31,751 nucleotides of DNA, from IMG/VR virus record IMGVR_UViG_3300031707_000110, positions 1-31,751 of that record; one strand, 5' to 3'. The DNA is from a virus. The position numbers and the translations under genes are program-made. Numbering within the stretch: position 1 is the stretch's first letter; every line of letters starts with the position of its first letter. Positions 8,024-26,085 of this stretch are shown one piece after another. The notes beneath the pieces are model-generated. The model saw only the letters and a program-made list of their open reading frames with translations. It made no database searches and was not told the DNA's origin.

Positions 8024-8335
8024 ATGAATATTATCGTTCCCTTAAATAAACGCGTCATTGTCGAGCCGGAAGGCAAAGAGGAAGTTACTAAGGGCGGAAT
8101 TATCATCCCTGACACCGCTAGCCAGAAGGCGCCTACGAAAGGCAGGGTTATCTCTATTGCGGAAGACAGCGATTTGAAATTGAAAATATCCAGCGGCGAT
8201 ATTGTGCTGTTCTCCAAATATGCCGGGACTGAGGTAGTCATACCGGCAAAGAGCGTTAATGAGAAAGACAGGCAGCTGCAGGTGATAAAGGATGAGGATA
8301 TCTTGGCGGTGATAAAATATGAAAACGCAAATTAA
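8024..8335 (+). CDS. groES: GroES-like co-chaperonin (Cpn10), 103 aa
   Basis: ATG at 8024 follows AGGAGGTAAC. The opening NIIVPLNKRVIVEPE and the segment EVTKGGIIIPDTASQKAPTK match the Cpn10 barrel and its mobile loop (GGIxIP), followed by GRVISI and SGDIVLFSKYAGTEV, the usual core. The length is typical for the family. Phage co-chaperonins such as T4 gp31 pair with the host GroEL, often to fold the capsid protein; no GroEL gene is visible here, so host GroEL is the likely partner. Its position at the head of the structural operon agrees with that. Confidence 0.92.
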   Translation: MNIIVPLNKRVIVEPEGKEEVTKGGIIIPDTASQKAPTKGRVISIAEDSDLKLKISSGDIVLFSKYAGTEVVIPAKSVNEKDRQLQVIKDEDILAVIKYENAN

Positions 8336-9302: not shown

Positions 9303-11831
9303 ATGGAACACAATTTATTCAGAGTGAAATCTCTGGAAGAAGGCAAAGAAGCAGTAGTTGGTTCGTGTAATGGCTTTAGCAAGGAAGAACGCTGGAGTAA
9401 GGAGACGCCTGTGTTTGCCGAAAAGATATTAAAATGTATTACGAAAATTGTTCCATTAGGCTCTCTTGTCTCTATTTCAATGCTTGATTTTGGAGTTGGT
9501 TGTGGTCGACTTGCCAAAGAGATATTAGAACGAAGTTCAAGCACTAAAATTCTCGGAGTTGACACTTCTATTGACATGCTTGAACAGGCAATACAATATG
9601 TAAATAATGAAAGATTTGAAGCAAAAATTCCTACTGATATTCCTAAAGATAAGAAATTCGACCTCATCTATTGCGTCTATACCCTCCAGCACGTCCCTGC
9701 AATAGAGATTCGCGAAATCTTATCTAGAATATACAACCATCTTAAAGACGATGGCTTTTTCATATACTGCTCAAGTGATTACCGCATGTCTATACGCTTT
9801 GATGGTAAGGGTTTCTTTGATGACAGGTTTTTAGGAGTTAATTTACAGGAAGAGATAGAAAGATATTTTGATAAAGTTGAGCCGTTATTCATTGAAGAAG
9901 ATTTTAAGGATAACTATATCTTAAAGAAGATGATTACCGGCTGTGATAGCGGTCTGGCGCATCCAGCGTTTGTATATCGAAAGAAAATCGAAAGTAAAGA
10001 AGTTAAGCCGATAATTGAAGTTGAAGGAATACCTATTTATGAAAAGAATGGTAAACTCTTTGCTGGTAAAAACGCAAAAGAAAAAGTAATGCAACCGCAA
10101 AAACTCCTTCTCATCAACCGTCTCTCTCCGGGTGATATTCTTGTTATGACTAATGCTATCAGGGACCTGCATTTAGCTCATCCGGGAAAGTTCATTACTG
10201 ATGTGCGGACGCCCTGCCCGGATATCTTTGCCAATAATCCTTATATCACTAAGTTAACTTATAATGAAGCTAATTATAATCAAGTGAATACTTGGTTTCA
10301 GACTAATATAGGCAAGACTAAGATGTTAGAGGATGTTATGCTTATTGATATGCAATATCCTTTAATCCATCAGTCTGGAGCCAGAGGCGCTCATTTTGCT
10401 GAAGGGCATCGGGAGTTTCTTGAAGAGACGCTTAAAATCAAGATACCACAGACTAAAATCAGACCAGAACTGTATCTTACTGAACAAGAAAAAGCTATAT
10501 GGGCAACAGGTGTATTAGGTAATAATATGGGTTATAAAGGCAAATACTGGATCATTAATGCCGGCTCTAAGGGCGACTATACTTTGAAGCAATATCCGTA
10601 TTATCAAGAAGTCGTAGATTTACTCAAAGATAAAATTACTTTTGTCCAGATAGGAGTTAAATCTCATAACCATAAACCACTTGAAAATGTAATTGATATG
10701 GTGGGTAAGACTGATAATGTGAGAGATTTATTCAGTTTAATTTATAACGCCGAAGGAGTGATTACCTGCGTGGCCTTTCCTATGCACATCGCGGCTGCTT
10801 TTAAGAAACCCTGCGTGGTAGTGGCCGGTGCCAGAGAAGGCACACGCTGGGAGTTATATCCAAATCACCGCTTTATTTATGTCAATGGCTGCCTGCCTTG
10901 CGCTGATTATGATGGTTGTTGGAGATCAAGACAAGAAGAATGCAATTATAAGAAAAATGGTGTTCCTATTTGTATGACTTTAATAAAGCCGGAAGAAGTG
11001 TCGCGAGAAGTAGAGAGGTATTATGAGGGTGGAATTTTGAAATATGATATTAAAGAACCGGTTATACTTAACCTAAAAGGAGAAGAAAAAATGGATAAAG
11101 AAAAAATAGATTTTGCACACGCAGGATTAATGGCAGAGATTATGACTAATAGTAATAAAGATATTGTCATTGAACCTCTGCCTTCAGGCATTAATTCCCC
11201 TCAAGCAACCTCATCAATTTTTAATATCTTGCGTATCCTTAAACAGTTAACTCCTAGCGATACTTACCTTGAGGCCTATCAGTGGCATTACGACAAAAGA
11301 AAAGATAAGTTTATGGATATTTATCACTTTATGCAATATCTCGGTGCGACAGTCAGGCCTAAACGGATTTTAGAGATAGGCACGCGCACCGGCATTTCAA
11401 TATGTCAGTTGCTTTCAGCATATCTTAATTACAATGAATTGGAAAGAGTGATACTCTGCGACTTATTCAATGATGGGATTTCAACTCCGAGTGTAGTCTT
11501 AAATGCTCTGAAATATCTGAATATTCCGGTTGATAAAGTGCAGTTTATTATAGGTAATTCTTTAGAAGAGATACCGAAGCTGATGGGTAAGGAAAGCTTC
11601 TCGTATGTCTTGGTGGATGGTTCTCATGACCGAAATGATGCTATGCAAGACCTTGAAAATTCTTATAAGTTAATTGAAAAAGAAGGTTATGTAATTTTTG
11701 ATGACCTCAGTATAGACGGCTGTAATCTTCAACCAGTTTGGGATAATTTCAAACAGAAATATTATGCTGATTTTATATTTATGGAAGATGGTGATAATGG
11801 TAAAGGTATAGGCATTGCTAAAAGGATCTAA
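9303..11831 (+). CDS. Methyltransferase - GT9 glycosyltransferase - methyltransferase fusion, 842 aa
   Basis: ATG at 9303 follows AAAAGGAGCTAAAAA. Residues about 55-175 are a class I SAM methyltransferase: motif I MLDFGVGCGRL (60-70), GVDTSIDMLEQA, then FDLIYCVYTLQHVP. Residues about 263-565 resemble GT9 (heptosyltransferase-like) enzymes: KLLLINRLSPGDILVMTNAI near 267, then FPMHIAAAFKKPCVVVAGA near 492, followed by a Cys-rich stretch. Residues about 597-842 are a second methyltransferase (ILEIGTRTGISICQL near 689; VLVDGSHDRNDAM). An internal ribosome binding site and ATG at 11091 could make this last domain separately. It opens the sugar cluster; the acceptor is unknown. Confidence 0.85.
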   Translation: MEHNLFRVKSLEEGKEAVVGSCNGFSKEERWSKETPVFAEKILKCITKIVPLGSLVSISMLDFGVGCGRLAKEILERSSSTKILGVDTSIDMLEQAIQYVNNERFEAKIPTDIPKDKKFDLIYCVYTLQHVPAIEIREILSRIYNHLKDDGFFIYCSSDYRMSIRFDGKGFFDDRFLGVNLQEEIERYFDKVEPLFIEEDFKDNYILKKMITGCDSGLAHPAFVYRKKIESKEVKPIIEVEGIPIYEKNGKLFAGKNAKEKVMQPQKLLLINRLSPGDILVMTNAIRDLHLAHPGKFITDVRTPCPDIFANNPYITKLTYNEANYNQVNTWFQTNIGKTKMLEDVMLIDMQYPLIHQSGARGAHFAEGHREFLEETLKIKIPQTKIRPELYLTEQEKAIWATGVLGNNMGYKGKYWIINAGSKGDYTLKQYPYYQEVVDLLKDKITFVQIGVKSHNHKPLENVIDMVGKTDNVRDLFSLIYNAEGVITCVAFPMHIAAAFKKPCVVVAGAREGTRWELYPNHRFIYVNGCLPCADYDGCWRSRQEECNYKKNGVPICMTLIKPEEVSREVERYYEGGILKYDIKEPVILNLKGEEKMDKEKIDFAHAGLMAEIMTNSNKDIVIEPLPSGINSPQATSSIFNILRILKQLTPSDTYLEAYQWHYDKRKDKFMDIYHFMQYLGATVRPKRILEIGTRTGISICQLLSAYLNYNELERVILCDLFNDGISTPSVVLNALKYLNIPVDKVQFIIGNSLEEIPKLMGKESFSYVLVDGSHDRNDAMQDLENSYKLIEKEGYVIFDDLSIDGCNLQPVWDNFKQKYYADFIFMEDGDNGKGIGIAKRI

Positions 11832-12184
11832 TGGTTCTTGAAAATATTATTAATGAATTCCGGGCAAAATATGGAAAGCCACCAGCAATAACCGCTGAGG
11901 CAATAGAACACGAACATTGTAGATTGCACTGCCTTTATATGGCTAATAACTTCAAAGTAGAACACACACCAGATTATTTTTTATGCGGTAAGGCAGAAAT
12001 TGTAGGTGCAGCCAGTTATAGGCATAGCGATGAAGATACTATTAGATTTTTACTCTATGAAAAGATAGCTAATAGTCCAGAACATCTTAAAGTTTTATTA
12101 GAGTCAAAATATTTAGCACATTGGTTTTATGTAAATGATTACATAGGATACCTTGTGATTAGAGGGGGGGAAAGGATAATATGA
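11831..12184 (+). CDS. CAP/SCP-like domain protein, 117 aa
   Basis: The ATG shares one base with the TAA of the fusion gene, and AAAGGATCTA serves as ribosome binding site. The order HEHCRLHCLYMANN, then VEHTPDY, GKAEIVGAAS, and YEKIANSPEHLKVLLE, then IGYLVIRGG follows the CAP fold: a histidine-bearing first helix, H...E core, and the W/A-x-SPxH helix before the final strands. CAP domains are often secreted, but no signal peptide is present here. It could also be an unrelated small alpha-beta protein. Role in the sugar cluster is unclear. Confidence 0.5.
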   Translation: MVLENIINEFRAKYGKPPAITAEAIEHEHCRLHCLYMANNFKVEHTPDYFLCGKAEIVGAASYRHSDEDTIRFLLYEKIANSPEHLKVLLESKYLAHWFYVNDYIGYLVIRGGERII

Positions 12185-13074
12185 AATTTGAAATTATTAT
12201 GCCCTACAGGCCTTATTCTCATGGAGATTTAAGTTCGCCACATGGGGATTTAGTACAGCTTGAAGATGATAGCTGGAGAAATAGTTCTGGAAAGATCTTC
12301 AAGGAAGGATTAGAATATGAAAAACATCGAGTCAGTATTCGACAAGCAATAGAGGCTTTGAATAAAAATTCTTTCTACAAACATCACATAATAGTTGCGA
12401 TAGATTCGGATGTTTATCCAAATAAATCTTTTTTAAATAATTTTGAAAATGTATCTATCATTAAGTCAGAATTTAAAGTCCCTAAAGAACATTATGGAGT
12501 AAGAATGCCTCTTGCTTGTAAGGCTGCTATTGATTCTCTTCCGGGGGAAGGTTTTCTTTGCCATGTGTATTTAGCTGATACTATTTGCTCTAAGAATTGG
12601 GATAAATACATAGTTGAGGCTATTAATAGGCTTGGAGAAGATAAAGTGTATGTCCCTATTTGGGTTGAAGGTTCTCATGGGGCGTTTCAAGAATTAGTTG
12701 GAATAGAATTGACACCTGATTTTATCTGGGAAAAATGTTCTAAAAAAATTGCTGCTGGAGCGTTTTTTCTTCCGGATCCTAGACGAAGCTATATCCAAGA
12801 AGAAGATTTTGAACACTACATTGAAATATTGCAGAAGGGAAACAGAGATTGTATTATTGAGAATTGTGGGGGAAGAATATTTGGTTGGCTGATATGTTTA
12901 TGTATGAAAATTTCTTATGCCAAGCAAATAAAATTTGATATCACTGATGTACATTCTATAGATACTAAGTTTGATTCACAACTTGGTGGATTGGGATTGA
13001 AGAAAGTAGTGGTTACGAACTCATTTATCTGGCATCCACAATGTTCGCATTTAGAACTAAGGTTGAAATATTAA
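12181..13074 (+). CDS. GT-A-type glycosyltransferase-like protein, 297 aa
   Basis: The ATG overlaps the previous TGA and follows GGGGAAAGGATAAT. The protein starts with FEIIMPYRPYSHGD and has a long helix leading to HHIIVAIDSDVYPN, where the Asp-rich strand end resembles the DxD region of GT-A enzymes; LCHVYLADTICSKNWDKYI resembles the acceptor-side segment of GT2 proteins. No membrane segments except possible hydrophobic patches near FGWLICLCM. Fold and role are inferred; substrate unknown. It is followed by a 45-nt gap and the dehydrase-like gene. Confidence 0.55.
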   Translation: MKFEIIMPYRPYSHGDLSSPHGDLVQLEDDSWRNSSGKIFKEGLEYEKHRVSIRQAIEALNKNSFYKHHIIVAIDSDVYPNKSFLNNFENVSIIKSEFKVPKEHYGVRMPLACKAAIDSLPGEGFLCHVYLADTICSKNWDKYIVEAINRLGEDKVYVPIWVEGSHGAFQELVGIELTPDFIWEKCSKKIAAGAFFLPDPRRSYIQEEDFEHYIEILQKGNRDCIIENCGGRIFGWLICLCMKISYAKQIKFDITDVHSIDTKFDSQLGGLGLKKVVVTNSFIWHPQCSHLELRLKY

Positions 13075-13119: not shown

Positions 13120-14259
13120 ATGATTAAAGTTGGAGATTATTTCACAACTCCTGAAGATGAACAATCTGTATTAGAAGTTTTGAGATCTAATCGTTTGTCA
13201 GAGGGTAGTAAAGTCAGGGAATTTGAGGAGAAATGGGCTGAATTCTGTGGGACTAAATACTGCGTACTTACTAATTCTGGAACTTCCGCGTTGCTTGCTT
13301 GTCTGGAAGTGATGAAAGATATAACTAAACAAAGAAAGGTTTGGACATCGCCAAATACTTTTATATCCACCGTAAATGCCATAGTATTGTCTGGATTTGA
13401 GCCAGTATTCTCTGATGTGGATAAAGAAACCTTTGTTTTAAAACCGATACTCAATAGGGCTGGGATATTTCTGCCTGTCCATTTATATGGATACCCAGTA
13501 GATATGAACGAATTTAATTACTCTTGGATGATAGAAGATGCATGTGAGGCTCATGGTTCATTATATAAAGGCAAGAAAGTTGGTTCCATAGGGCTTATGG
13601 GATGTTTTTCTTTCTACATAGCCCACAACATCCAAGTCGGGGATATGGGGGCGATTATCACGAATGACCTTGAGATATATCGGGAATTAAAAAAGGTCAA
13701 GGCTCATGGCCGGATGTGCGAATGCACTGTTTGCCACAGGGCAGAGGGCAAGTGTCCGAATAAAGATAAAGGTTTTGATCCTCGCTTTACCCATACCCGA
13801 ATAGCTTATAACTTCAAAACTACTGAGATGCAAGCGGCGTTAGGGTTAAATCAACTCAAACATGCCGATGAAATAATCCGTAAGCGGCAAGAGAATGTTT
13901 TATACTTAAATACTGGTTTAAGAGATATAAAAGATTTACAACTCCCAATTTGGAATACAACAGTTAGTTATCTTGCATATCCTTTGATATTAAGAAATCC
14001 TGAGATAAACCGTAATGAATTCTGCAATAAGATTGAAAAAGCTGGAGTGGAAACTAGACCTTTCTTTTCTTGCGTACCTACACAACAACCTGCTTACGCA
14101 TATTTAAGAGAACAATGGAAAGACAAACTTCCTAATGCGGAATGGTTAGGGTTAAGAGGATTTCATATAGGGTGTCATCAATATTTGACAAAAGAAGAAT
14201 TAGATTTTATAATAGAGACAGTTAGAAAGGAAATTATTTATGATAGTAGAAAATATTGA
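13120..14259 (+). CDS. DegT-family RfbH/E1-like 3-dehydrase (Lys replaced by His, Fe-S cysteines), 379 aa
   Basis: ATG at 13120 follows AAGGAAGGAGATTTTACTCA. The fold type I PLP enzyme marks are clear: NSGTSALLACL (52-62), TSPNTFISTVNAIVLSG, HLYGYPVDM and IEDACEAHG (138-146) with the cofactor-binding Asp140. The residue that normally carries PLP as a Schiff base is not Lys but His169 (CFSFYIAHNI), as in ColD and RfbH/E1, which are 3-dehydrases rather than aminotransferases. Cys142, Cys200, Cys202 and Cys212 (plus Cys205) follow the E1 iron-sulfur spacing C-x57-C-x-C, differing only before the last Cys. It therefore probably removes the 3-hydroxyl from a nucleotide-linked 4-keto-6-deoxy sugar. 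Length is shorter than RfbH (about 437). No E3-type reductase is in the window. Confidence 0.82.
   Translation: MIKVGDYFTTPEDEQSVLEVLRSNRLSEGSKVREFEEKWAEFCGTKYCVLTNSGTSALLACLEVMKDITKQRKVWTSPNTFISTVNAIVLSGFEPVFSDVDKETFVLKPILNRAGIFLPVHLYGYPVDMNEFNYSWMIEDACEAHGSLYKGKKVGSIGLMGCFSFYIAHNIQVGDMGAIITNDLEIYRELKKVKAHGRMCECTVCHRAEGKCPNKDKGFDPRFTHTRIAYNFKTTEMQAALGLNQLKHADEIIRKRQENVLYLNTGLRDIKDLQLPIWNTTVSYLAYPLILRNPEINRNEFCNKIEKAGVETRPFFSCVPTQQPAYAYLREQWKDKLPNAEWLGLRGFHIGCHQYLTKEELDFIIETVRKEIIYDSRKY
14185..14213 (+). promoter_or_regulatory. Consensus sigma70 promoter inside the dehydrase gene
   Basis: TTGACA (14185-14190) and TATAAT (14208-14213) are both exact consensus hexamers, separated by 17 bp. The predicted start (about 14220) is 20 nt before the next gene's ATG at 14240. 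It lies in coding sequence for the C-terminus of the dehydrase, so it could be coincidental, but sequence-wise it is the strongest promoter in the window. Confidence 0.55.
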
Positions 14260-14908
14260 GATTCTTGAGTATAATAAAGATATTATGGAATTTAAAGGAG
14301 TTGATTTTAAGAGTATGCCGATAGATCAATGGCTTTATTTCTGCAAGGCTAATTTGACTTTTGGCGAACCCGGTATAGATTATTATGAACTTGCTGCTTT
14401 GCATCAAGCCTGTGAGATTTTTGGTAAACGATCATTAACGATAGTAGAAACAGGTATGTGTTTTGGCACTACTACCAGATATTTTTTAGTAAGGGTTATA
14501 AAATATGGCGGGGAATTACATACTTTTGAAGTTACTATCCGTGATAAATTCAAAGAAACTATGCAGGAACTCGGGCTTTGGGATAAAATAAATTTACATG
14601 GACATTCTATGAAAGACCCCTGGAGTAAAGAAATAGATGTTCTTTTTATAGATTCTGAACATGCTTTAGAAAATACATTAGGTGAGTATATGCATTTTAG
14701 AGAGTGGCTTAAAGCAGATTCAATTATAGGTTTTCATGACACTAATTGTTGTACTGGCGTAATAAAGGCTCTTGAGATGATACAGGAAGTCGACGAGTTA
14801 GAACTTATAAGTGAATGCAGTGATAGGGCTCATGCTGGGGTAAAATTCTTTAGAAGGAAGATTAAAAATAGGACAGATAGGCCTTGGAATACAGGAAAAA
14901 GAATATAG
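14240..14908 (+). CDS. CmcI-like (Methyltransf_24 type) methyltransferase, 222 aa
   Basis: The ATG at 14240 overlaps the dehydrase gene by 20 nt and follows AAAGGAAATTATTT. It contains LTIVETGMCFGTTTRYFLVR (about 66-85), the SAM-binding glycine-rich loop, then VLFIDSEHALENTLGEY and IIGFHDTN, which match the cephalosporin hydroxylase/CmcI-type methyltransferases with an Asp-Ser/Gly-x-His step. Such enzymes methylate sugars or small metabolites. It belongs to the same cluster as two similar domains (C-terminal part of 9303-11831 and 15954-16652). Confidence 0.8.
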   Translation: MIVENIEILEYNKDIMEFKGVDFKSMPIDQWLYFCKANLTFGEPGIDYYELAALHQACEIFGKRSLTIVETGMCFGTTTRYFLVRVIKYGGELHTFEVTIRDKFKETMQELGLWDKINLHGHSMKDPWSKEIDVLFIDSEHALENTLGEYMHFREWLKADSIIGFHDTNCCTGVIKALEMIQEVDELELISECSDRAHAGVKFFRRKIKNRTDRPWNTGKRI

Positions 14909-14910
14909 CC

Positions 14911-15960
14911 ATGACAATGACAAAAGAAAATAACACAAAAATTAAAAAATTCTTTAAAGACGATCCTGCAATTATGTGTCATCATAAACTTTTAGAAAAC
15001 GGACTTCCTGTCGCGGAAATCATAGAAGAAATAGAAGAAGATTCATCTATACTCAAAAAAAGCACTTGGGTGGAAGGTAATACTTTTGCTGAGGTAAAAC
15101 CTAGAGCAATAGAATGGTATCAATTCGGAATATTTTTTGCTGATATGAATAATTTAGGGATAACGGCATTCGATCTAGTGTATCAAAATATATTGCGTCG
15201 TTTAGACGGAAGAGTTATTATGTGCGATCTCGCGAAATTATATCCTTCAATAGATTTTCCAGAAGAGCCGATTGTAAAATATCTATTAAATAATGTATAT
15301 ATGTTGGAAGAGCATAAACAGGCTTTTCTGGAAGGATATATTACAAAAAGACCTATAAGCAAAGAAGGTCTTTTAGAAAAAGAATGTCAATTCAACTATG
15401 ACGGATATCAAGATCTCTACTGTAATGGCAAACTAATCCGTAAAGGAGTTAGATCAAATAAAAGGCTTTCTATGATTAAAGACGATTTTAATAATAAAAA
15501 TGTCTTAGATTTTGGATGCTCTATGGGAATGTTCTGCCGAGAGGCAAAAAGAAAAGGAGCATTTAAAGTATTGGGAGTAGATAATATAGTCCGGGGAAAA
15601 ATTAGGCATCTGATTGACCTTCCGGCTTATATTTCATATCTGGAAGGGCTTACTATCCAGTATCAATGTGCGGATATAGAACATATTAACTTAAAAAATA
15701 GAGTTACAGACACCAAATGGGATATAGTTTTCTTCTGTGCTATGCTGGGACATATTGCAGGAGACCGAGAAAATTATGTAAAATGGCTTAAAAGCATAAC
15801 AAAGGTGATATATTTTGAGTCTAATCTTGGAGGCACAGAAGAAAAAATTATGCCTTTTATAAATAGTATAGGATTTTCTAAGGTTGAATGTTTAGGAGAA
15901 AGTGGGGATCCTGATAGATATCCAAATAATCATTATATAATGTGGAGGTGCGAATGTTAG
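14911..15960 (+). CDS. Kinase-like domain fused to SAM methyltransferase, 349 aa
   Basis: The start is placed at ATG 14911, two bases after the previous stop; a TTG at 14884 in the same frame would add nine residues and cannot be excluded. The N-terminal half contains GITAFDLVYQNILRRLDGRV and IMCDLAKLYP, which match the catalytic loop (DLxxxNIL) and the following metal-binding Asp of protein-kinase-like folds such as the LPS/Kdo kinases. The C-terminal half is a methyltransferase (NVLDFGCSMGMFCREAKRKG, LGVDNI, WDIVFFCAMLGHIAG). The kinase glycine-rich loop is not obvious, so that half may be partial. Likely a sugar-modifying enzyme. Confidence 0.65.
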   Translation: MTMTKENNTKIKKFFKDDPAIMCHHKLLENGLPVAEIIEEIEEDSSILKKSTWVEGNTFAEVKPRAIEWYQFGIFFADMNNLGITAFDLVYQNILRRLDGRVIMCDLAKLYPSIDFPEEPIVKYLLNNVYMLEEHKQAFLEGYITKRPISKEGLLEKECQFNYDGYQDLYCNGKLIRKGVRSNKRLSMIKDDFNNKNVLDFGCSMGMFCREAKRKGAFKVLGVDNIVRGKIRHLIDLPAYISYLEGLTIQYQCADIEHINLKNRVTDTKWDIVFFCAMLGHIAGDRENYVKWLKSITKVIYFESNLGGTEEKIMPFINSIGFSKVECLGESGDPDRYPNNHYIMWRCEC

Positions 15961-16652
15961 ACAACTATAAAAACCCAATTTCTTTTGCTCCAGATATGGA
16001 TTATTTCAAAATTTATCCTGCGCCGATGTTTGAAGCAATGTTTAATCAGCATATAGGCCCTTGCAACTCAACTACTCCTTACTATGGGCCTCTTTTATAT
16101 TGGTTATGCCGAGCTGTAAATGCTTTAAACGTTATGGAAATAGGTATGGCTCAAGGTTGGTCTAGTTTCTTTATGGCAAGCGCAGTTAAAGATACAGGTG
16201 TTAGAAACGGTGTAGAAGGAATGTATTATGGAGTGGAGATATCAGATTGTACTGAATTATTTGATAGAATGAAGGCAAGAGGCGTAAATGCTAAACATAT
16301 TCATAAAGATTCATTAAAATTAATTCCTGCGGATTGGGATAATAAATTTCTTGATGTAGTATATCAAGATGGATGGCATTCGACCGAATATGTGTTAGAT
16401 GAATTAGCTATTTTAGCTCCTTATTTAAAAGATAATGGCAATGGTTATTGGGTAATGCACGATGTTTATAGTTGGTGTGAAGAAGGTTTTGCTGAAGTTA
16501 AAAAGCGCCACCCTAACTGGGAGTGTGTCAGATTTTTAACTAATTATGGTTTAGCGATATTCAGGAATATGGATAACTATGACTATAAAAAGAAATATTG
16601 GGATGGGCCTCAGAAGCCGGCATATCCGAATAGAGAGGAAATAGTAACATGA
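15954..16652 (+). CDS. CmcI-like methyltransferase, 232 aa
   Basis: ATG at 15954 follows GGAGGTGCGA and overlaps the previous TAG; a GTG at 15942 would contain the binding site itself. Motif I is NVMEIGMAQGWSSFFMASAV, followed by YYGVEISD and FLDVVYQDGWHSTEYVLDEL, then YWVMHDVYSW: the pattern of Methyltransf_24/CmcI enzymes with the D-G-x-H step. It ends with an ATGA overlap with the next glycosyltransferase. Confidence 0.8.
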   Translation: MLDNYKNPISFAPDMDYFKIYPAPMFEAMFNQHIGPCNSTTPYYGPLLYWLCRAVNALNVMEIGMAQGWSSFFMASAVKDTGVRNGVEGMYYGVEISDCTELFDRMKARGVNAKHIHKDSLKLIPADWDNKFLDVVYQDGWHSTEYVLDELAILAPYLKDNGNGYWVMHDVYSWCEEGFAEVKKRHPNWECVRFLTNYGLAIFRNMDNYDYKKKYWDGPQKPAYPNREEIVT

Positions 16653-17659
16653 AATCAAAATATGCATTTATTGTCTGCGCTGATATCCGTTATTTACCAG
16701 AGGTGATTGGGTTGTTAAACAGTCTTTCGTATGTCGGCAATACTTCTGATGTTCATTTCTATGGTTATCAAATACCTAAAGAAGTTCAAGAGCAATTTAT
16801 TCTTCTTGGTTATAATGTTATTTTCCACGAAATCAGTGATGAGGAGATAAGAATTAACCATGGTTTAAGCGAGGTTGTTTGCCGGAAGCGGTATTATTTC
16901 GCCAATGAAATAGGCCAAGATTATTCTGCTGTCTGTGTATTAGATGCGGATATGATATTTTGCCGAAATCCGATACAATTCTTTGAAATTGCAGAAAAAA
17001 CTGGATTTGTGTTAGGTGTCGTAAAGGAACAAAAAGAATCTTATAAACATCCTCATCATAAATTCAAAAATGAGTGGATAATGCCAGAAGGTTTTATTCC
17101 TGAATTTGATTTATGTAATTGCCCATTATTTGTAGATACTAAAATTTGGGGAGAGGCGCTAAAGAGAAGTTACGAAATATTTATTGATGGTTTTGATGAG
17201 ATGAAAGGCGATAATTTTAAAGGTCCAGATATGTCCGCGATGAATTTAATGCTTGCTAAATATGGTTCAGAAGGTAAGACTATCGGATTACCTAATGTTC
17301 AATGGTTAGGGACGAACGAGCAAAATTTAAAATTATATCAAAGAGCTGTAACCGATTACGGAAAAATAAAAACCGAAACAGGAACACCGATATACAGTTA
17401 TCATGGGCAATATTATCATCCTCGTTGGAGAAATGTGCAGTTAATGAATAGAGATCATTGCGCTAAAGGGTATTTTAAAGCAAGTGGAGATTCTCTTGAA
17501 TGTTCAAATAATATCGCGCGAGGCGCGATGAATCTACTTTATGAAAGATTTAAGAAGATGTTAGATTGGAAAATTATTATAGAAAAGAAAAATTATAGGC
17601 ATCCTGAAAAAAATACAGGTTATTTGGATATTGTTTCTGATGAGGATTTTTTAAAATGA
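16649..17659 (+). CDS. GT-A fold glycosyltransferase, 336 aa
   Basis: ATG at 16649 overlaps the previous TGA and follows GAGGAAATAGTAAC. KYAFIVCADIRYLPEVIGLL at the N-terminus is the nucleotide-binding strand and first helix; VCVLDADMIF (D99-A-D101) is the metal-binding DxD motif; FDLCNCPLFVDTKIW and DMSAMNLMLAKYG fit the acceptor region of GT8-like enzymes. No signal peptide or membrane segment. It would transfer a sugar from a nucleotide donor; donor and acceptor unknown. Confidence 0.7.
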   Translation: MKSKYAFIVCADIRYLPEVIGLLNSLSYVGNTSDVHFYGYQIPKEVQEQFILLGYNVIFHEISDEEIRINHGLSEVVCRKRYYFANEIGQDYSAVCVLDADMIFCRNPIQFFEIAEKTGFVLGVVKEQKESYKHPHHKFKNEWIMPEGFIPEFDLCNCPLFVDTKIWGEALKRSYEIFIDGFDEMKGDNFKGPDMSAMNLMLAKYGSEGKTIGLPNVQWLGTNEQNLKLYQRAVTDYGKIKTETGTPIYSYHGQYYHPRWRNVQLMNRDHCAKGYFKASGDSLECSNNIARGAMNLLYERFKKMLDWKIIIEKKNYRHPEKNTGYLDIVSDEDFLK

Positions 17660-18561: not shown

Positions 18562-21210
18562 ATGAAAATAACCTGTTGTAAATGCAGTAAAAAATATTCT
18601 TTTGACGAAAATCTATATGAGCCAAAAGAATTATCTTCTTTAATTCTTATCTGCCCTCATTGTAATCTTACCCACACTGTTAAATTTGATATATCTGAAC
18701 CTCTTTCAATTTCTATATTAAAAAAAGTAGTTGACTTGAAATTATCTGTTACCGAACTCGACTATATGGAATACGCAGACGACGCCAATGCACAGGCGGC
18801 GTATGTAACAAATGATACAATAGACTCCTATACTAAACTTTTGCTACATTTAGATAATAATGTTACTGATTCCGCTACTGGCAAAACAGTAACCAATAAC
18901 AATGTAACTTTTTCTAATACTGCCACACAGTTTAAGTGGGGATACTCAGGAGTATTTAATGGAACTTCTGCATACTTATCTATTCCTGACAGTGATGATT
19001 GGGCGTTTGGAACAGGAGATTTTACTATTGAGTGTTGGTTTAAAGGGGCTAGTCCCACAAATCTTGCTCTTATTTTAGGTAGAGTATCAGGAACTGGAAG
19101 TAGTTGGTCAGACTTAAATTGGGCAATGTGTATTACGGGTGCTGGAAAATGCTTAATAGATATTAGTAATAACGGAAGCAGTACTGGGGCAATAGAAATT
19201 ACTTCTTCTACTTCAATTAACGATGATGTGTGGCATCATCTTGCTTGTGTAAGGTATGGTGATAGATTTGATTTATATGTTGATGGAATATCTGAAGCCA
19301 ATGGTACTTCAGCTCTTACTGTTTTAGATGATAATAGAACTGTTTTAATAGGAACAGGATATAATACTGGTGAATTTATTACTGGTAAGGTTGATGAAGT
19401 TCGTGTATCTAAAGGTATAGCTCGCTGGATTTCAAATTTTACTCCGCCAGTTTTTGCTTATCCTAACTATTTGCAATGTGGTTCCGAAGCCACAATCAAA
19501 ACTCAAGGTTCATATTCATTAAAAGGAGTGGCGGCGATAACGGATAGCCTCAATAAAACCCTTACCCACACAGTTTCACCAACGATAGATTTAAGTAATA
19601 AAAATACTTGGGTATTTGATATTCGTGCTTCTCGGACAGGAAGTAATATCAAAGTTGGGTTGCATGATAGTGGAGGCACTACTACTGAAGTAACTCCGAA
19701 TATAACTGTTGCTGGCGAATTTTTGCATGTTCAAGCAGACATATCAGGTGTTGCGAATGCTAATAAAGATGCGATAGATTCAATAATTATAACACAGGTA
19801 AATGCCGATAGTGATACAACTTATTATATAGATAATATGTATGCGACTACGGATGCTAGTTCATCTTCGTCGTCAAGCAGTTCAAGTAGCTCAAGTAGTT
19901 CAAGTTTATCTAGCAGTTCCAGTTCTTCCAGCTCTTCCAGTAGTTCATTCAGTTCAAGCAGTTCTAGCTCTTCCAATTCTTCCAGCAGTTCATTCAGCTC
20001 AAGCAGTTCTAGCTCTTCCAATTCTTCCAGCAGTTCATTCAGCTCAAGCAGTTCTAGCTCTTCCAATTCTTCCAGCAGTTCATTCAGTTCAAGCAGTTCT
20101 AGTTCTTCTAGTTCTTCCAGTTCATCAAGCAGTTCATTCAGTTCAAGCAGTTCCAGCTCTTCTAGTTCTTCAAGCAGTTCATTCAGTTCAAGCAGTTCTA
20201 GCTCTTCCAGCTCTTCCAGCAGTTCATTCAGATCAAGCAGTTCTAGCTCTTCTAGTTCTTCCAGCAGTTCATTCAGTTCAAGCAGTTCTAGCTCTTCCAG
20301 CTCTTCCAGCAGTTCATTCAGTTCAAGCAGTTCTAGCTCTTCTAGTTCTTCCAGCAGTTCATTCAGTTCAAGCAGTTCTAGCTCTTCTAGTTCTTCCAGC
20401 AGTTCATTCAGCTCAAGCAGTTCTAGCTCTTCTAGTTCTTCCAGCAGTTCATTCAGCTCAAGTAGTTCCAGCTCTTCAAGTAGCTCAAGCAGTTCATTCA
20501 GTTCAAGCAGTTCCAGTTCTTCAAGTAGCTCAAGCAGTTCATTCAGTTCAAGCAGTTCCAGTTCTTCAAATAGCTCAAGCAGTTCATTCAGCTCAAGCAG
20601 TTCCAGTTCTTCCAGTTCTTCCAGCAGTTCATTCAGCTCAAGCAGTTCTAGTTCTTCTAGTTCTTCCAGCAGTTCATTCAGTTCAAGCAGTTCCAGTTCT
20701 TCTAGTTCTTCCAGCAGTTCATTCAGTTCAAGCAGTTCCAGCTCTTCCAGCTCTTCAAGCAGTTCATTCAGTTCAAGCAGTTCCAGCTCTTCCAGCTCAT
20801 CAAGCAGTTCATTCAGTTCAAGCAGTTCCAGCTCTTCCAGTTCTTCAAGCAGTTCATTTAGTTCAAGCAGTTCCAGTTCTTCTAGTTCATCAAGCAGTTC
20901 ATTCAGCTCAAGCAGTTCAAGCAGTTCTAGTTCTTCAAGCAGCTCAAGCAGCTCAAGCAGTTCTAGTTCTTCAAGCAGTTCTAGCTCATCAAGTTCTTCA
21001 AGTAGTTCTAGTTCTTCAAGCAGCTCAAGTAGTTCCAGTTCTTCCAACTCTTCAAGTAGTTCAAGTAGCTCAAGCAGTTCCAATTCTTCCAGCTCTTCAA
21101 GTAGTTCTAGTTCAGCTTCATCATTACCTCATAAAGTTGAATTTAAAGACGATACTTATGATTATAAGTTTAAAGACGATACTTATGATTATAAATTTAA
21201 AGAGCATTAA
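18562..21210 (+). CDS. Zinc ribbon - LamG - beta domain - serine-rich repeat protein, 882 aa
   Basis: The ATG at 18562 follows GAAGGATATAAG; an upstream TTG at 18535 falls in the terminator stem and is rejected. Residues 1-40 are a zinc ribbon (CCKCSKKYSF, LICPHCNLTH). Residues about 90-300 are a LamG/concanavalin-like jelly roll (YSGVFNGTSAYLSIPD, DFTIECWFKG, WHHLACVRYGDRFDLYVDGI, GKVDEVRVSKGIARW). A second beta domain follows to about 430. Residues 433-855 are almost entirely Ser, with a Phe every 15 residues. The end has two FKDDTYDYK repeats. No signal peptide. It is probably a virion surface or tail-fibre-like protein that binds carbohydrate; the Ser tract is a good glycosylation target. 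Confidence 0.8.
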   Translation: MKITCCKCSKKYSFDENLYEPKELSSLILICPHCNLTHTVKFDISEPLSISILKKVVDLKLSVTELDYMEYADDANAQAAYVTNDTIDSYTKLLLHLDNNVTDSATGKTVTNNNVTFSNTATQFKWGYSGVFNGTSAYLSIPDSDDWAFGTGDFTIECWFKGASPTNLALILGRVSGTGSSWSDLNWAMCITGAGKCLIDISNNGSSTGAIEITSSTSINDDVWHHLACVRYGDRFDLYVDGISEANGTSALTVLDDNRTVLIGTGYNTGEFITGKVDEVRVSKGIARWISNFTPPVFAYPNYLQCGSEATIKTQGSYSLKGVAAITDSLNKTLTHTVSPTIDLSNKNTWVFDIRASRTGSNIKVGLHDSGGTTTEVTPNITVAGEFLHVQADISGVANANKDAIDSIIITQVNADSDTTYYIDNMYATTDASSSSSSSSSSSSSSSSLSSSSSSSSSSSSSFSSSSSSSSNSSSSSFSSSSSSSSNSSSSSFSSSSSSSSNSSSSSFSSSSSSSSSSSSSSSSSFSSSSSSSSSSSSSSFSSSSSSSSSSSSSSFRSSSSSSSSSSSSSFSSSSSSSSSSSSSSFSSSSSSSSSSSSSSFSSSSSSSSSSSSSSFSSSSSSSSSSSSSSFSSSSSSSSSSSSSSFSSSSSSSSSSSSSSFSSSSSSSSNSSSSSFSSSSSSSSSSSSSSFSSSSSSSSSSSSSSFSSSSSSSSSSSSSSFSSSSSSSSSSSSSSFSSSSSSSSSSSSSSFSSSSSSSSSSSSSSFSSSSSSSSSSSSSSFSSSSSSSSSSSSSSSSSSSSSSSSSSSSSSSSSSSSSSSSSSSSSSSNSSSSSSSSSSSNSSSSSSSSSSASSLPHKVEFKDDTYDYKFKDDTYDYKFKEH
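19948..20946 (+). repeat. About 21 tandem 45-bp units coding for Phe plus 14 Ser
   Basis: Phe codons (TTC, once TTT) mark units from 19948 to 20902; all but one interval are 45 nt and one is 54 nt. Ser codons AGT, AGC, TCA, TCT and TCC are mixed, so neighbouring units are similar but not identical in DNA while the protein is conserved. Early units carry one Asn; one unit begins Phe-Arg. Confidence 0.9.
21142..21195 (+). repeat. Two 27-bp repeats coding for FKDDTYDYK
   Basis: The units at 21142-21168 and 21169-21195 differ by one base and encode the same nine residues, followed by a partial FKEH. They form the acidic C-terminal tip of the Ser-rich protein. Confidence 0.9.
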
Positions 21211-21527: not shown

Positions 21528-22126
21528 TGGTTAATGAACGTTCGTTAGCAAATTTAAGAGGCCCTAAACCAAAAAAAGAAGGATATGGCTACCGGTATTG
21601 CATGCCACAGGAAAAAATTGATGAGTTGTTTACATATCTGGCTGAAGGCATATCTTTGAAACAGGCCGCTAAAAAAGCCAAAATGTGTTTTGAAACAGCA
21701 AGAAAATATTTTAGAAGAGGTGATGAGAAGCGTGGAATTAAGCCGCTTCAATGGCGTTTGACTATCTTTCAAGACAAGATTTCTGAAAAATATAATGTCC
21801 TTTTGGTTGAACGCCGGGCAGAAATGGTGGATATTCTTCGCACAAGCATAAATAGCATAAAAGAGAAGATTAAAGAAAAACAATGTAAGTTCTGTGAAGG
21901 CACAGGAATACAGACTGGTAAAGACGAGATAAAAATAGCCTGTCCGGTATGTAAGGGCGAAGGAAAAATTATGGGTTCATTGATGGATAAATCATCTTTA
22001 AGAGATTTGGATAGGTTGATCCGCCTTGAGGTATTTCTATTGGGCGGAGTTACGCAAAAAGAAAAAGAAAGAAAAATGTTAAGCGCGGAGGAGATAGCTG
22101 GTGGAGACAATAACGAAAACTCTTGA
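21527..22126 (+). CDS. Putative small terminase subunit with zinc knuckles, 199 aa
   Basis: The ATG shares a base with the previous TAA. Residues about 40-66 (FTYLAEGISLKQAAKKAKMC, then FETARKYFRRG) form a helix-turn-helix. Residues about 120-145 contain CKFCEGTGIQ and CPVCKGEGKI, a DnaJ-type zinc site not typical of small terminases. A C-terminal acidic/helical part follows. Its position immediately before TerL, overlapping by 26 nt, is the main reason for the call; a small terminase recognises the packaging site and hands DNA to TerL. Confidence 0.65.
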   Translation: MVNERSLANLRGPKPKKEGYGYRYCMPQEKIDELFTYLAEGISLKQAAKKAKMCFETARKYFRRGDEKRGIKPLQWRLTIFQDKISEKYNVLLVERRAEMVDILRTSINSIKEKIKEKQCKFCEGTGIQTGKDEIKIACPVCKGEGKIMGSLMDKSSLRDLDRLIRLEVFLLGGVTQKEKERKMLSAEEIAGGDNNENS

Positions 22127-23684
22127 AAGAATAGACTGGCAGAAGGAAATAGACAGCCGCGACCCGGTTGACGCGAAGAAGTGGCAGATTAAGGAATACC
22201 GGCGCTGCGTTGAGGATAAAATCTATTGGTTCAATAACTATGTCTGGACAATAGATACGCGTAGGACTCCGTCAATTATTCCTTTTGTATTATGGCCTAA
22301 ACAGATAGAATTGGTTAAAGAATTAGATAAATATCAAGATTTATTCATTGATAAGGCCAGAGATCTCGGCATTTCTTGGACAGTTATGGGCTGGGAATTG
22401 CATCAGAATTTATATACAAAGGGTTTTACTGCTTTAAATCTTTCAAGAAAAGAGTCGGAAGTGCAAGATTCCGGAAATACTTTCCATGCCTTGCACGGCC
22501 GGATATTATTTATGTATTCAAGGCTTCCACCATTCTTGAAGCCGCGGATACACAATCCGTTCCTTATTTTTGCGGTGCCTTCAATGAATTCAGTAACTAA
22601 AGGAGAGTCTGCAAACCCTAACGCCGGAAGAGATACGCAGTATAAATTTATCTTTGTTGATGAAGCGGCGCATATCGAGTGCCTTGATGAGATGTGGAAG
22701 GGTTTAAGAAACGCCTCCAACGCAATATGCCTTAATTCAACTCCGCCAACAGAGAGTGTTAATAATAAGTTCGCGGAAATTAAAGAGATGCCTAATTCCG
22801 GTTTTGCCAAGATGCGTTTTGAATGGACTGATAACCCGCTGCATGACGAGGCATGGTTTGCCAAAAAGACCGCTTCCATGACAGAGCAAGAAATATCACA
22901 GGAGTTATTAGTGCAATATGACAAGGCAAAGATCAACCGTTCTTATCCTGAATATGATGATGGGATACATCTCTTAGGGCATAAGGTATATCTTAATCCG
23001 AAATCAAAATTATACTGTTTTATGGATTTTGGGTTGGGGGGCGAAGTATTTACTTTCGCTCAAAAGGATTTTGAGGATAGATTATTTGCTATATATTATA
23101 AAATATTCTTTAATAAATTAACTCCTGAATTATATCTTGAGTTTATTAAATGTCTTGATGCTTTAGGTTATACCGGGCAGATAAGCGACATAGTATATAT
23201 AGGAGACAAGTCCGGCAACAAAAGAAGCCGTATTACCAATACGAGTGTGATAGAGGATTATAAAAAAGTTTCTAACGGCCAAATAGATATACATACACGA
23301 GAACTTACTAACGATGAAAAGATGAAATGCGTCAAAACATGCCTTAAAAAATATATCAACGGCCGGCCGCAGTTCAATATTTCAAACGAGCCGACTTGCT
23401 TGGAATTGGCAAAGTGTATGAAAAATGTTACGCTTAATAAAACAGGGCAAGACCATATAGACAATAAATATACCCACGCGGTTAACGCTATTGAATATGG
23501 CATAAACTATTTATTTCCTAAAACTAAAGCCGCCGGCATAGTTGTAGGGATAGACCCGGGGCAAGAAATAAAAGATAATAATGGCAAGATAATCAGGACA
23601 GTTGAGCCGGTAATGACCAGAGGCGCTTCTGTAGCTTCAGTTATAAATAGATACAGAACAGAACGAAGAGGAATAATTGGTTAG
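22101..23684 (+). CDS. terL: Terminase large subunit, 527 aa
   Basis: GTG at 22101 follows GGAGGAGATAGCTG inside the small-subunit gene. The ATPase part has a Walker A variant, DKARDLGISWT (84-94), with the adenine-side Q motif near PKQIELV, and Walker B FIFVDEAAHI (184-192) with Asp187/Glu188. The nuclease part has CFMDFG (Asp309), IVYIGDKSGNK (Asp369) and a final HAVNAIEYGINYL, the metal-binding Asp/His pattern of RNase H-like terminase nucleases. It pumps DNA into the procapsid and cuts it. Length is normal. The short C-terminal tail is specific. Confidence 0.95.
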   Translation: METITKTLERIDWQKEIDSRDPVDAKKWQIKEYRRCVEDKIYWFNNYVWTIDTRRTPSIIPFVLWPKQIELVKELDKYQDLFIDKARDLGISWTVMGWELHQNLYTKGFTALNLSRKESEVQDSGNTFHALHGRILFMYSRLPPFLKPRIHNPFLIFAVPSMNSVTKGESANPNAGRDTQYKFIFVDEAAHIECLDEMWKGLRNASNAICLNSTPPTESVNNKFAEIKEMPNSGFAKMRFEWTDNPLHDEAWFAKKTASMTEQEISQELLVQYDKAKINRSYPEYDDGIHLLGHKVYLNPKSKLYCFMDFGLGGEVFTFAQKDFEDRLFAIYYKIFFNKLTPELYLEFIKCLDALGYTGQISDIVYIGDKSGNKRSRITNTSVIEDYKKVSNGQIDIHTRELTNDEKMKCVKTCLKKYINGRPQFNISNEPTCLELAKCMKNVTLNKTGQDHIDNKYTHAVNAIEYGINYLFPKTKAAGIVVGIDPGQEIKDNNGKIIRTVEPVMTRGASVASVINRYRTERRGIIG

Positions 23685-23703: not shown

Positions 23704-26085
23704 ATGAAAAAGACTAAAATAACAAAAGAACCATCCGAAGTAATTCTAAATTTCAATGAGAGACAGAAACGATCTGTTGAAATTCAGCGTAGATTAGCTG
23801 AAGCATATCCGATGATAGGCGGTTCAGGTGAAGACTCATTGTGGCGTTCCTTGACTACTAATCAGGATAGAGATCTTAATCTGCTTACACAGCGCAGGAT
23901 GCAGGATATCGCATTTTATTTATATGACAGCAACCCTATGGCTGGAAGGATTATTGAAATTATTGAAGATTTTGTTATCGGCGATGGTTTCAGTTATACA
24001 GCACAAGACCCTGATGTCAAAGAAGTATTGGATAACTTTTGGGAAGACCCGGATAATAATTTAGATGAAGAAATGAATGTCAATGTTGTAGAGTTATTTC
24101 TTTTCGGGGAGCTCTGTTTGCCAGTTTGGGTCAATTCTGCTAACGGCGCTGTAAAGTTAGGATATATAGACCCTAAAACAATACTAAAAATTAAAAAAGC
24201 TCCTAATAATCCTAAAATAAATCAAAAATTAATTTGGAGAAAGCCCAGCGGCTCGGTAGAAAGAGAAATAAATATTATCAATGTTGATAAAGCATTAAAG
24301 TCCAAAACTTATGGAAGATTAGTAGGGGATTGTTTCTATTTTACAATTAATAAAGTAAGTTCTGCAACGCGGGGTAGAAGTGCGCTATTAAGATTAGCCG
24401 ATTGGTTAGACGGCTATGATTCATTTCTTTTTGCCCGGTTAGAGAGAGCATTTCTTCTAAACAATTTTATCTGGGATATTCAATGTGAAGGAATGAATAA
24501 AGGAGAATTGGAAGAGTTTGTCAAAACCTTAGCCACGCCTCGTCCTGGCTCTATCAGGGCGCATAATGAAAAAATCACTTGGAAAGCAGAAACCCCAAAG
24601 TTAGAATCTGCTGACGCTTCTGATGAAGCAAGATTATTTAAACAACAGATATTAGGCGGTTCAGGATATCCAGAACATTGGTTTGGTGAAGGTTCTACAA
24701 CGACTAGAGCCTGTATGGATTCTTTAACTGAAACTCTAACAGAAAATGGGTGGAAGAAATATTGGGAAGTTTTACCTAATGAAAAAATAGCTACCTTAAA
24801 TCCAAAGAATAATCAACTTGAATATCATTTGCCAGTTCAAAAATTTGTTTATGATATAAAAAACGAAGAATTAATTTATTTTAATAATAAATTTATTGAT
24901 ATTATGGTAACTCCAGAACATAAAATGTGGACTAGAGAAAAATATGAAAAAAAATATAAAAAAATTATGGCAAAAGATTTAGAGAAAAATCAATATCATT
25001 TTCAAATGGCAGTAGATTGGATAGGTTTAGAAAAACAATATTTTAATTTACCTTCCTGTCCTACTATTGGTAGAGCAATATATCCCGAACTTACAATTCT
25101 TATGGATGATTTTCTTGAATTTTTGGGATACTTTATTTCTGAGGGTTCTTTAAGAAGAACACAATTAATTAGACATGTATATACTATTGAAATTAGTCAA
25201 AAAGATAAAAAGAAAACTCAAAAAATAAGAGAATGTTTAAATAGATTACCTTTTAAATTTTCAGAAAAAAAAGACAAGGATATTATTAATAGATTTAATT
25301 TAAATGATAAAGCATTATGGATTTGGTTATATGAAAATGTTGGGAATTTATTTTTAAATAAGAAAATTCCTTTAATTTTTAAAAATTTAGGGAAAAGACA
25401 ACTTAGAATATTATTAGATGCATTAATTTTAGGGGATGGTAGTTTGAATAGAGATAAAACTTATCCTACTTATTATTATACAGCTTCAGAAAAATTAAGA
25501 GATGATTTTCAAGAAATAGCGTTAAAGTGTGGTTTTCAAGTAAAATACATGAAAGGGAATAGATGTTGGAGATTAGCACTTTGTCAAAGAAAAGAAGCTA
25601 AAATATGGAATCCAAGTGGTATTAAAAAAGTTAAATATCAAGGAAAAGTTTATTGTTTTGAAGTTCCAAACCATCTTTTTATCACTAGAAGAAATGGGAA
25701 AATTGGGATACATTCAAATACTGCAAAAGAGATGTCGGCTCCTGTATTGAAAAGTTTAAAATCAAAACAGAAAAAAGTTAAATTTATCATTAAACGGATG
25801 TTCAATTTTGTTATTGACCAGGCGATAATTGCTGGAACTTTAACTAAAGATGTTAATAGAAATTTTAAGATAATACCTTCACCTATTGTTTCAGGAGATA
25901 GCAGTAAAGGCGCTGCTGAAGCGATGGGTGGATTAATCGGCGGCTTAGTTCAGGCTTCTGATAAAGGTTGGATAAGCGACAAGAAAGCAAAGACAGTTTT
26001 AAATGCGGTAATTAGTCAATTAGGTGTTGATATGGAAAGCGATACTGATGAAGAAAAAGTAGAAAAGGAGGAAACTATAAAATGA
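23704..26085 (+). CDS. Portal protein interrupted by an intein, 793 aa precursor
   Basis: ATG at 23704 follows AAAGGAGAGTTAAG. The N-extein (1-336) has QRRMQDIAFYLYDSNPMAGR and IIEIIEDFVIGDGF, typical of phage portal proteins, and the C-extein (673-793) continues the portal with TAKEMSAPVLKSLKSKQ. Between Ala336 and Thr673 lies a 336-residue intein. After splicing the portal would be 457 residues, a normal length, and the junction restores GSTTTRA-TAKEM, which fits the conserved TRATA region of portals. The portal forms the ring through which DNA is packaged. The C-terminus is acidic. Confidence 0.92.
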   Translation: MKKTKITKEPSEVILNFNERQKRSVEIQRRLAEAYPMIGGSGEDSLWRSLTTNQDRDLNLLTQRRMQDIAFYLYDSNPMAGRIIEIIEDFVIGDGFSYTAQDPDVKEVLDNFWEDPDNNLDEEMNVNVVELFLFGELCLPVWVNSANGAVKLGYIDPKTILKIKKAPNNPKINQKLIWRKPSGSVEREINIINVDKALKSKTYGRLVGDCFYFTINKVSSATRGRSALLRLADWLDGYDSFLFARLERAFLLNNFIWDIQCEGMNKGELEEFVKTLATPRPGSIRAHNEKITWKAETPKLESADASDEARLFKQQILGGSGYPEHWFGEGSTTTRACMDSLTETLTENGWKKYWEVLPNEKIATLNPKNNQLEYHLPVQKFVYDIKNEELIYFNNKFIDIMVTPEHKMWTREKYEKKYKKIMAKDLEKNQYHFQMAVDWIGLEKQYFNLPSCPTIGRAIYPELTILMDDFLEFLGYFISEGSLRRTQLIRHVYTIEISQKDKKKTQKIRECLNRLPFKFSEKKDKDIINRFNLNDKALWIWLYENVGNLFLNKKIPLIFKNLGKRQLRILLDALILGDGSLNRDKTYPTYYYTASEKLRDDFQEIALKCGFQVKYMKGNRCWRLALCQRKEAKIWNPSGIKKVKYQGKVYCFEVPNHLFITRRNGKIGIHSNTAKEMSAPVLKSLKSKQKKVKFIIKRMFNFVIDQAIIAGTLTKDVNRNFKIIPSPIVSGDSSKGAAEAMGGLIGGLVQASDKGWISDKKAKTVLNAVISQLGVDMESDTDEEKVEKEETIK
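24712..25719 (+). mobile_element. Intein with LAGLIDADG homing endonuclease in the portal gene
   Basis: It starts with Cys337 (CMDSLTETLTENGW, block A), has TPEH (403-406, block B), two LAGLIDADG helices, FLEFLGYFISEGSL (470-483) and LRILLDALILGDGSL (567-581), and ends YCFEVPNHLFITRRN ... GIHSN with Asn672 before Thr673. The usual final His-Asn is here His-Ser-Asn. The DNA is visibly richer in A/T runs than the flanking portal sequence, which suits independent acquisition. It should self-splice and its endonuclease would target inteinless portal genes. Confidence 0.92.

Follow-up and report, generated by a model that had tools for sequence, protein, structure and literature searches.

Three kinds of sugar 3-dehydratase are distinguished in reviews, E1, ColD and SpnQ, and the cluster ligands are known from E1. 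In all 3-dehydratases a PMP Schiff base is formed, a histidine removes a proton and the C3 hydroxyl group leaves; in E1 and SpnQ the intermediate is reduced through a [2Fe-2S] cluster, and in ColD, which has no cluster, it is hydrolysed and PMP is regenerated with glutamate (PMC8987622). SpnQ, a His-type dTDP-sugar 3-dehydrase, uses general ferredoxin/flavodoxin reductases for its cluster chemistry (PMC8987622); it differs from the enzyme described here in its dTDP substrate and its place in secondary metabolism, and is likened to it by description, not by sequence.

Phage-borne E1-type 3-dehydratases are already known. The cyanophages S-H68 (QBP05885) and S-CAM7 (AOV62415) likewise carry annotated His-type 3-dehydratases in sugar islands, the former a canonical E1 with C142 and C-x-C and the latter a Cys-less, ColD-like enzyme, both about 25–27% identical to the protein of this study, and a motif search showed at least 120 viral contigs to contain the canonical E1 motif. 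The novelty lies in the cysteine set and the lineage; no description of the C-x-C-x2-C...C set and its clade was found in the open-access literature searched.

The DNA analysed here (the window) is a stretch of 31,751 nucleotides from an IMG/VR virus record. The reading that we prefer, at a probability of about two in three, is that it encodes a PMP-dependent Fe-S 3-dehydratase with the cluster on C200, C202, C205 and C212 and GDP-4-keto-6-deoxy-D-mannose as substrate, carried by the phage as optional glycan-modifying cargo.

The Dehydratase Gene and Its Family

Positions 13120–14259 of the window (+ strand) hold an intact open reading frame for a full-length DegT_DnrJ_EryC1 protein of 379 aa (Pfam, 8e-79), which exceeds the curated cut-off of PF01041 (265.9 versus 19.8 bits). 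The best PDB profile match was E1 with 390 bits, ColD scoring 297. Pairwise and profile alignment with E1 (PDB 3bcx) placed His169 (codon 13624–13626, + strand, as are all codons given here), which replaces the PLP lysine, opposite H220, Cys142 (13543–13545) opposite C193, Cys200 (13717–13719) opposite C251 and Cys202 (13723–13725) opposite C253, with identical 57- and 1-residue spacings. Two further cysteines follow, Cys205 (13732–13734) and Cys212 (13753–13755). The DNA pattern C-x22-FY-x-AH-...-GR-x-C-x-C gave one match in the window and none in 100 shuffles. The earlier note on this DNA had named the histidine as the substitute for the PLP lysine and had listed the five cysteines; all five lie at those positions in the 379-aa frame, and the histidine, besides aligning with H220, is maintained across the clade.

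An ordinary DegT sugar aminotransferase with an incidental histidine would agree with the Pfam family and with the top single-sequence PDB match by E-value, which is an aminotransferase; we regard it as very improbable, because His169 is kept clade-wide and all the Lys-type homologs are devoid of the C-x-C. As judged from its sequence, the window protein is probably a PMP-dependent NDP-4-keto-6-deoxyhexose 3-dehydratase of the His type and DegT fold, with a putative Fe-S cluster. The label RfbH/E1-type given to it earlier is apt in that it is a His-type 3-dehydratase related to E1 and RfbH, but too narrow in that its score against the NCBIfam RfbH equivalog NF011936 (204.7 bits) stays below the cut-off of 423 and the protein falls outside the E1 clade.

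In a tree of 81 proteins the window protein grouped with that of phage L308 (support 100) within a clade of 17 members (clade A, support 100), separate from the E1/RfbH clade and near Omnitrophota sequences; an earlier tree agrees on clade A. Members of clade A occur in Omnitrophota, DPANN archaea, other phyla and phages. A second clade (clade B), from Omnitrophota, Coatesbacteria and some phages, likewise has Ala142 and C-x-C-x2-C...C. Within the E1 lineage are the canonical E1 enzymes and, near its base, a five-Cys group with C142 plus C-x-C-x2-C...C, and Cys-less, ColD-like enzymes of the His type are found in at least three places in the tree. Archaeal His-type Cys-less enzymes (L392–L395, with EDSCETMFA and GRDSIY) form a clade of their own that includes phage members.

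The simplest reading of this distribution would be that C-x-C-x2-C...C is old, that E1 swapped C205 for C193, and that ColD-like enzymes repeatedly lost the cluster; we infer this order of the cysteine changes from deep branches with SH-aLRT values of 83–98, without bootstraps.

Conserved Cysteines and Candidate Cluster Ligands

The cluster of E1 is reportedly held by C193, C251, C253 and C261, an assignment said to go back to Agnihotri et al. in 2004. The window protein departs from the cluster motif C-x57-C-x-C-x7-C in its last gap, which is x9, and contains the part C142-x57-C200-x-C202. Since the spacing from C-x-C to the final cysteine varies, from about 7 to 14 residues in viral E1s with 9 in the window protein, x7 is not a fixed rule. 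For the fourth ligand the earlier note had offered Cys205 and Cys212. C205 was placed opposite E1 C261 by pairwise alignment, and this candidate was rejected because the profile alignment overruled it: C212 lies opposite C261 in the 66-sequence profile and in the larger alignment alike. This agrees with the subsequent ...C-x-x-RF that is common to the five-Cys and E1 groups and on which the assignment is based; in the large alignment, 108/108 canonical E1-type viral proteins have Cys in column 212. Cys212 is thus the putative fourth ligand and Cys205 an extra conserved cysteine, kept in clades A and B and in the five-Cys group and absent from E1.

A search with the pattern FY-x-AH...GR-x-C-x-C-x2-C retrieved 10 viral and 108 genome loci. 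As the pattern selects H169, C200, C202 and C205, their conservation in this set is circular (H169, chosen through AH, in 110/110) and the other positions alone are informative: residue 212 was Cys in 110/110, and residue 142 was Ala in 73 proteins, Cys in 23 and Ser in 14. Overall similarity to the window protein, with the cysteines unused, was then the basis of a search of 285 genomes of the Omnitrophota phylum, whose best 30 homologs (32–58% identity) had H169, Ala142 and C-x-C-x2-C...C in 30/30. The set was widened by profile-searching the viral contigs and by searching 236 genomes from the phylum to which a Candidatus Nanoarchaeia genome (G003) belongs; some sequences were gathered by peptide patterns lying outside the cysteine loop, and a single-protein search of the viral contigs with the window protein gave no match. 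Among 140 overall-similarity homologs the loop C-x-C was present in 50 of the 78 His-type proteins and in none of the 62 Lys-type proteins (Fisher p 5e-18, relatedness ignored). Cys142 was found in 10/50 proteins with His and C-x-C, in 28/28 with His and no C-x-C, and in 15/62 of the Lys type; it is uninformative about a cluster because it also occurs in Lys-type aminotransferases and in Cys-less dehydratases. In these sequences the C200–C212 loop travels with the histidine, and the conserved set is C200, C202, C205 and C212.

Cys142-x57-Cys200-x-Cys202, proposed earlier as the first part of the E1 motif, is therefore E1-like in its spacing in the window, but does not stand as a ligand set, Cys142 being unconserved and non-diagnostic. 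The residue is Ala or Ser in most relatives and may be a bystander or a fifth cysteine, and C205 is the putative ligand that would take the place of E1 C193. On the other side, the window protein retains Cys142, as do the proteins of phages L308, L306 and L307, which makes E1-like ligation possible in the window protein and counts against our preferred explanation. A canonical E1/RfbH enzyme, with a [2Fe-2S] cluster on C142, C200, C202 and C212, CDP-4-keto-6-deoxyglucose as substrate and C205 as a bystander, would account for this retention and for the exact E1 spacing, and E1 is the best solved relative; it is nevertheless unlikely, given Ala or Ser at position 142 in most of the clade, the retained C205, the placement outside the E1 clade below the RfbH cut-off, and the neighbouring genes described in the next section.

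Clade A shares with E1/AscC/RfbH (CDP-4-keto-6-deoxyglucose 3-dehydrase, PDB 3bcx and 3bb8) the DegT fold, His for Lys, and a C-x-C and downstream Cys that match E1 C251, C253 and C261 in position. It differs in having no conserved C193 position, in the extra conserved C205 and in forming a separate clade, as well as in neighbours of the GDP type, not the CDP type, with no E3-like gene seen nearby.

Gene Neighbourhoods and the Probable Substrate

Among same-strand genes up to three away, clade A loci had a gene of the cluster of Gmd, the GDP-mannose 4,6-dehydratase, in 36/72 cases, an Fcl-like gene in 34/72 and either of them in 49/72, and RmlA/RmlB was found within three genes in 0/72. Three Gmd representatives (L284, L207 and that of phage L304) passed the NCBI equivalog cut-off, and none of the neighbour representatives scanned reached the cut-off for CDP-glucose 4,6-dehydratase, which together with the Gmd/Fcl-like genes speaks against the canonical E1 enzyme. 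Gmd lies immediately upstream of the dehydratase gene in phage L304. Among full-length phage relatives the closest is L308 (69% identity); there a Gmd homolog (281 bits, below the cut-off of 415) follows directly downstream, beginning where the dehydratase gene ends. On the window contig no Gmd-type gene was found and no ferredoxin or reductase was recognisable by motif, which weighs against our preferred reading, although the contig is probably about half of a genome.

The Gmd, Fcl and ColC-like neighbours in relatives point to GDP-4-keto-6-deoxymannose, the ColD substrate, and not to a CDP sugar; they indicate this substrate without proving it. Where a CDP- or GDP-sugar had been proposed, the GDP alternative is thus favoured. 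ColD (GDP-4-keto-6-deoxymannose 3-dehydratase, PDB 2gms and 3gr9) resembles clade A in His for Lys, in the Gmd and Fcl/ColC-like genes found next to many clade A relatives and probably in the substrate, and differs in having no cluster (PMC8987622), whereas clade A has four conserved cysteines.

Other branches have other neighbours. The five-Cys group had RmlA in 7/19 and RmlB in 6/19 loci and no Gmd; its 3-dehydratases L182, L191, L226, L239 and similar ones, mostly archaeal, adjoin RmlA/RmlB-like genes, which suggests dTDP-sugar substrates. Clade B tends towards an HddA-like kinase and an HddC-like nucleotidyltransferase, its members L286–L294 and the phages L317 and L318 adjoining heptose-type kinase, isomerase and nucleotidyltransferase genes, and its substrate may be a heptose. 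Heptose-type neighbours were also found for the phage members L306 and L307.

Proposed Reaction

In the reaction that we propose, the 4-keto group of the sugar would be joined to PMP as a Schiff base, His169 would take a proton from C4' of PMP and the C3-OH would depart to give a 3,4-hexoseen intermediate. This intermediate would be reduced by electrons passed from a presumed donor via a cluster adjoining PMP, most likely held by C200, C202, C205 and C212 with C205 in the role of E1 C193. GDP-4-keto-6-deoxy-D-mannose, the product of Gmd and the most likely substrate, would be converted to GDP-4-keto-3,6-dideoxymannose or a colitose-like sugar.

The main chemical rival is a structural zinc on the four cysteines, combined with a ColD-like reaction in which the intermediate is hydrolysed and PMP is regenerated by glutamate. 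A zinc site would suit C-x-C-x2-C...C, the neighbouring Gmd/Fcl-like genes are those of the colitose pathway, in which ColD works without a cluster (PMC8987622), and the Cys-less His-type enzymes appear in at least three places in the tree; we hold this rival to be quite unlikely, as C200, C202 and C212 coincide with all but one of the four E1 cluster ligands and the protein is nearer to E1 than to ColD. Because three of its four conserved cysteines occupy E1 ligand positions, a cluster is the best bet, and we retain the Fe-S 3-dehydratase as the preferred reading.

Clade A combines an E1-like cysteine loop with a ColD-type gene neighbourhood, most of its members being without the first ligand of E1, and appears to be an unstudied branch spread over many bacterial and archaeal phyla and phages. 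More tentatively, and at somewhat less than even odds, it may represent a widespread uncharacterised Fe-S class that deoxygenates GDP-4-keto-6-deoxymannose by electron transfer, in which C-x-C-x2-C...C would be ancestral and from which E1 would have swapped C205 for C193 via the extant five-Cys intermediates. Confirmation of the cluster would call for a wider ligand rule in the recognition of such enzymes, and would make an evolutionary swap of metal ligands directly testable in the living five-Cys forms.

Phage Setting and the Cargo Island

The assignment of the contig to a phage is solid, as the earlier note had supposed: terminase, portal and capsid genes lie on the same contig, with the terminase large subunit at 22101–23684 (+), and a sister phage has an empty site in place of the dehydratase gene. 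The contigs of sister phages whose terminase is 58–86% identical reach about 60–71 kb, from which the window is estimated at about half a genome.

The gene stands in an island of cargo genes on the + strand. To its left are an 842-aa protein with methyltransferase, GT9-like and Methyltransf_24 domains (9303–11831) and a protein of unassigned family (12181–13074); to its right are a Methyltransf_24 protein (14240–14908), a Methyltransf_23-like protein (14911–15960), a second Methyltransf_24 protein (15954–16652) and a weakly glycosyltransferase-like protein (16649–17659, sub-threshold Nucleotid_trans and GT8). In G533 (L444), the closest syntenic phage, the genes flanking the insertion, 12181–13074 on the left and 14240–14908 on the right (79% and 83% protein identity), are adjacent and the segment 13097–14223 (+) is missing, so that the dehydratase gene is a single-gene presence/absence difference. 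None of nine related records tested (0/9) had a DegT gene, and with one syntenic relative a gain in the window phage is likelier than a loss. The phages L301, L302 and L308 share the gene at 69–73% without synteny to the window, which argues that it moves between unrelated phages. The locus shows cleanly how a single sugar-modifying gene can be gained or lost while the cargo island around it is otherwise conserved, and as optional cargo among glycosyl- and methyltransferases the enzyme would presumably alter a glycan, either of the host surface or of the virion.

The copy in phage L302 (9953–11058, on a contig that is also that of L312; 71% identical) has a frameshift near codon 218, due to decay or to sequencing error. 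As to the host, there is no tRNA on the window contig and no close TerL among named phages, and the closest cellular kin of the enzyme, which are in Omnitrophota, give no more than a hint.

Other features of the contig were also recorded. The portal gene (23704–26085) contains an intein-like insert at about residues 337–675, with LAGLIDADG and intein splicing matches, which is common to L421 and L418 and missing in several sister phages. A laminin-G-domain protein with very long serine tracts and periodic Phe is encoded at 18562–21210, next to the glycosyl/methyltransferase island, and the end of the contig (31262–31751) encodes another Ser-tract protein; the Ser-tract protein is possibly a glycosylated virion protein. 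The phage also encodes a GroES-like co-chaperonin (8024–8335).
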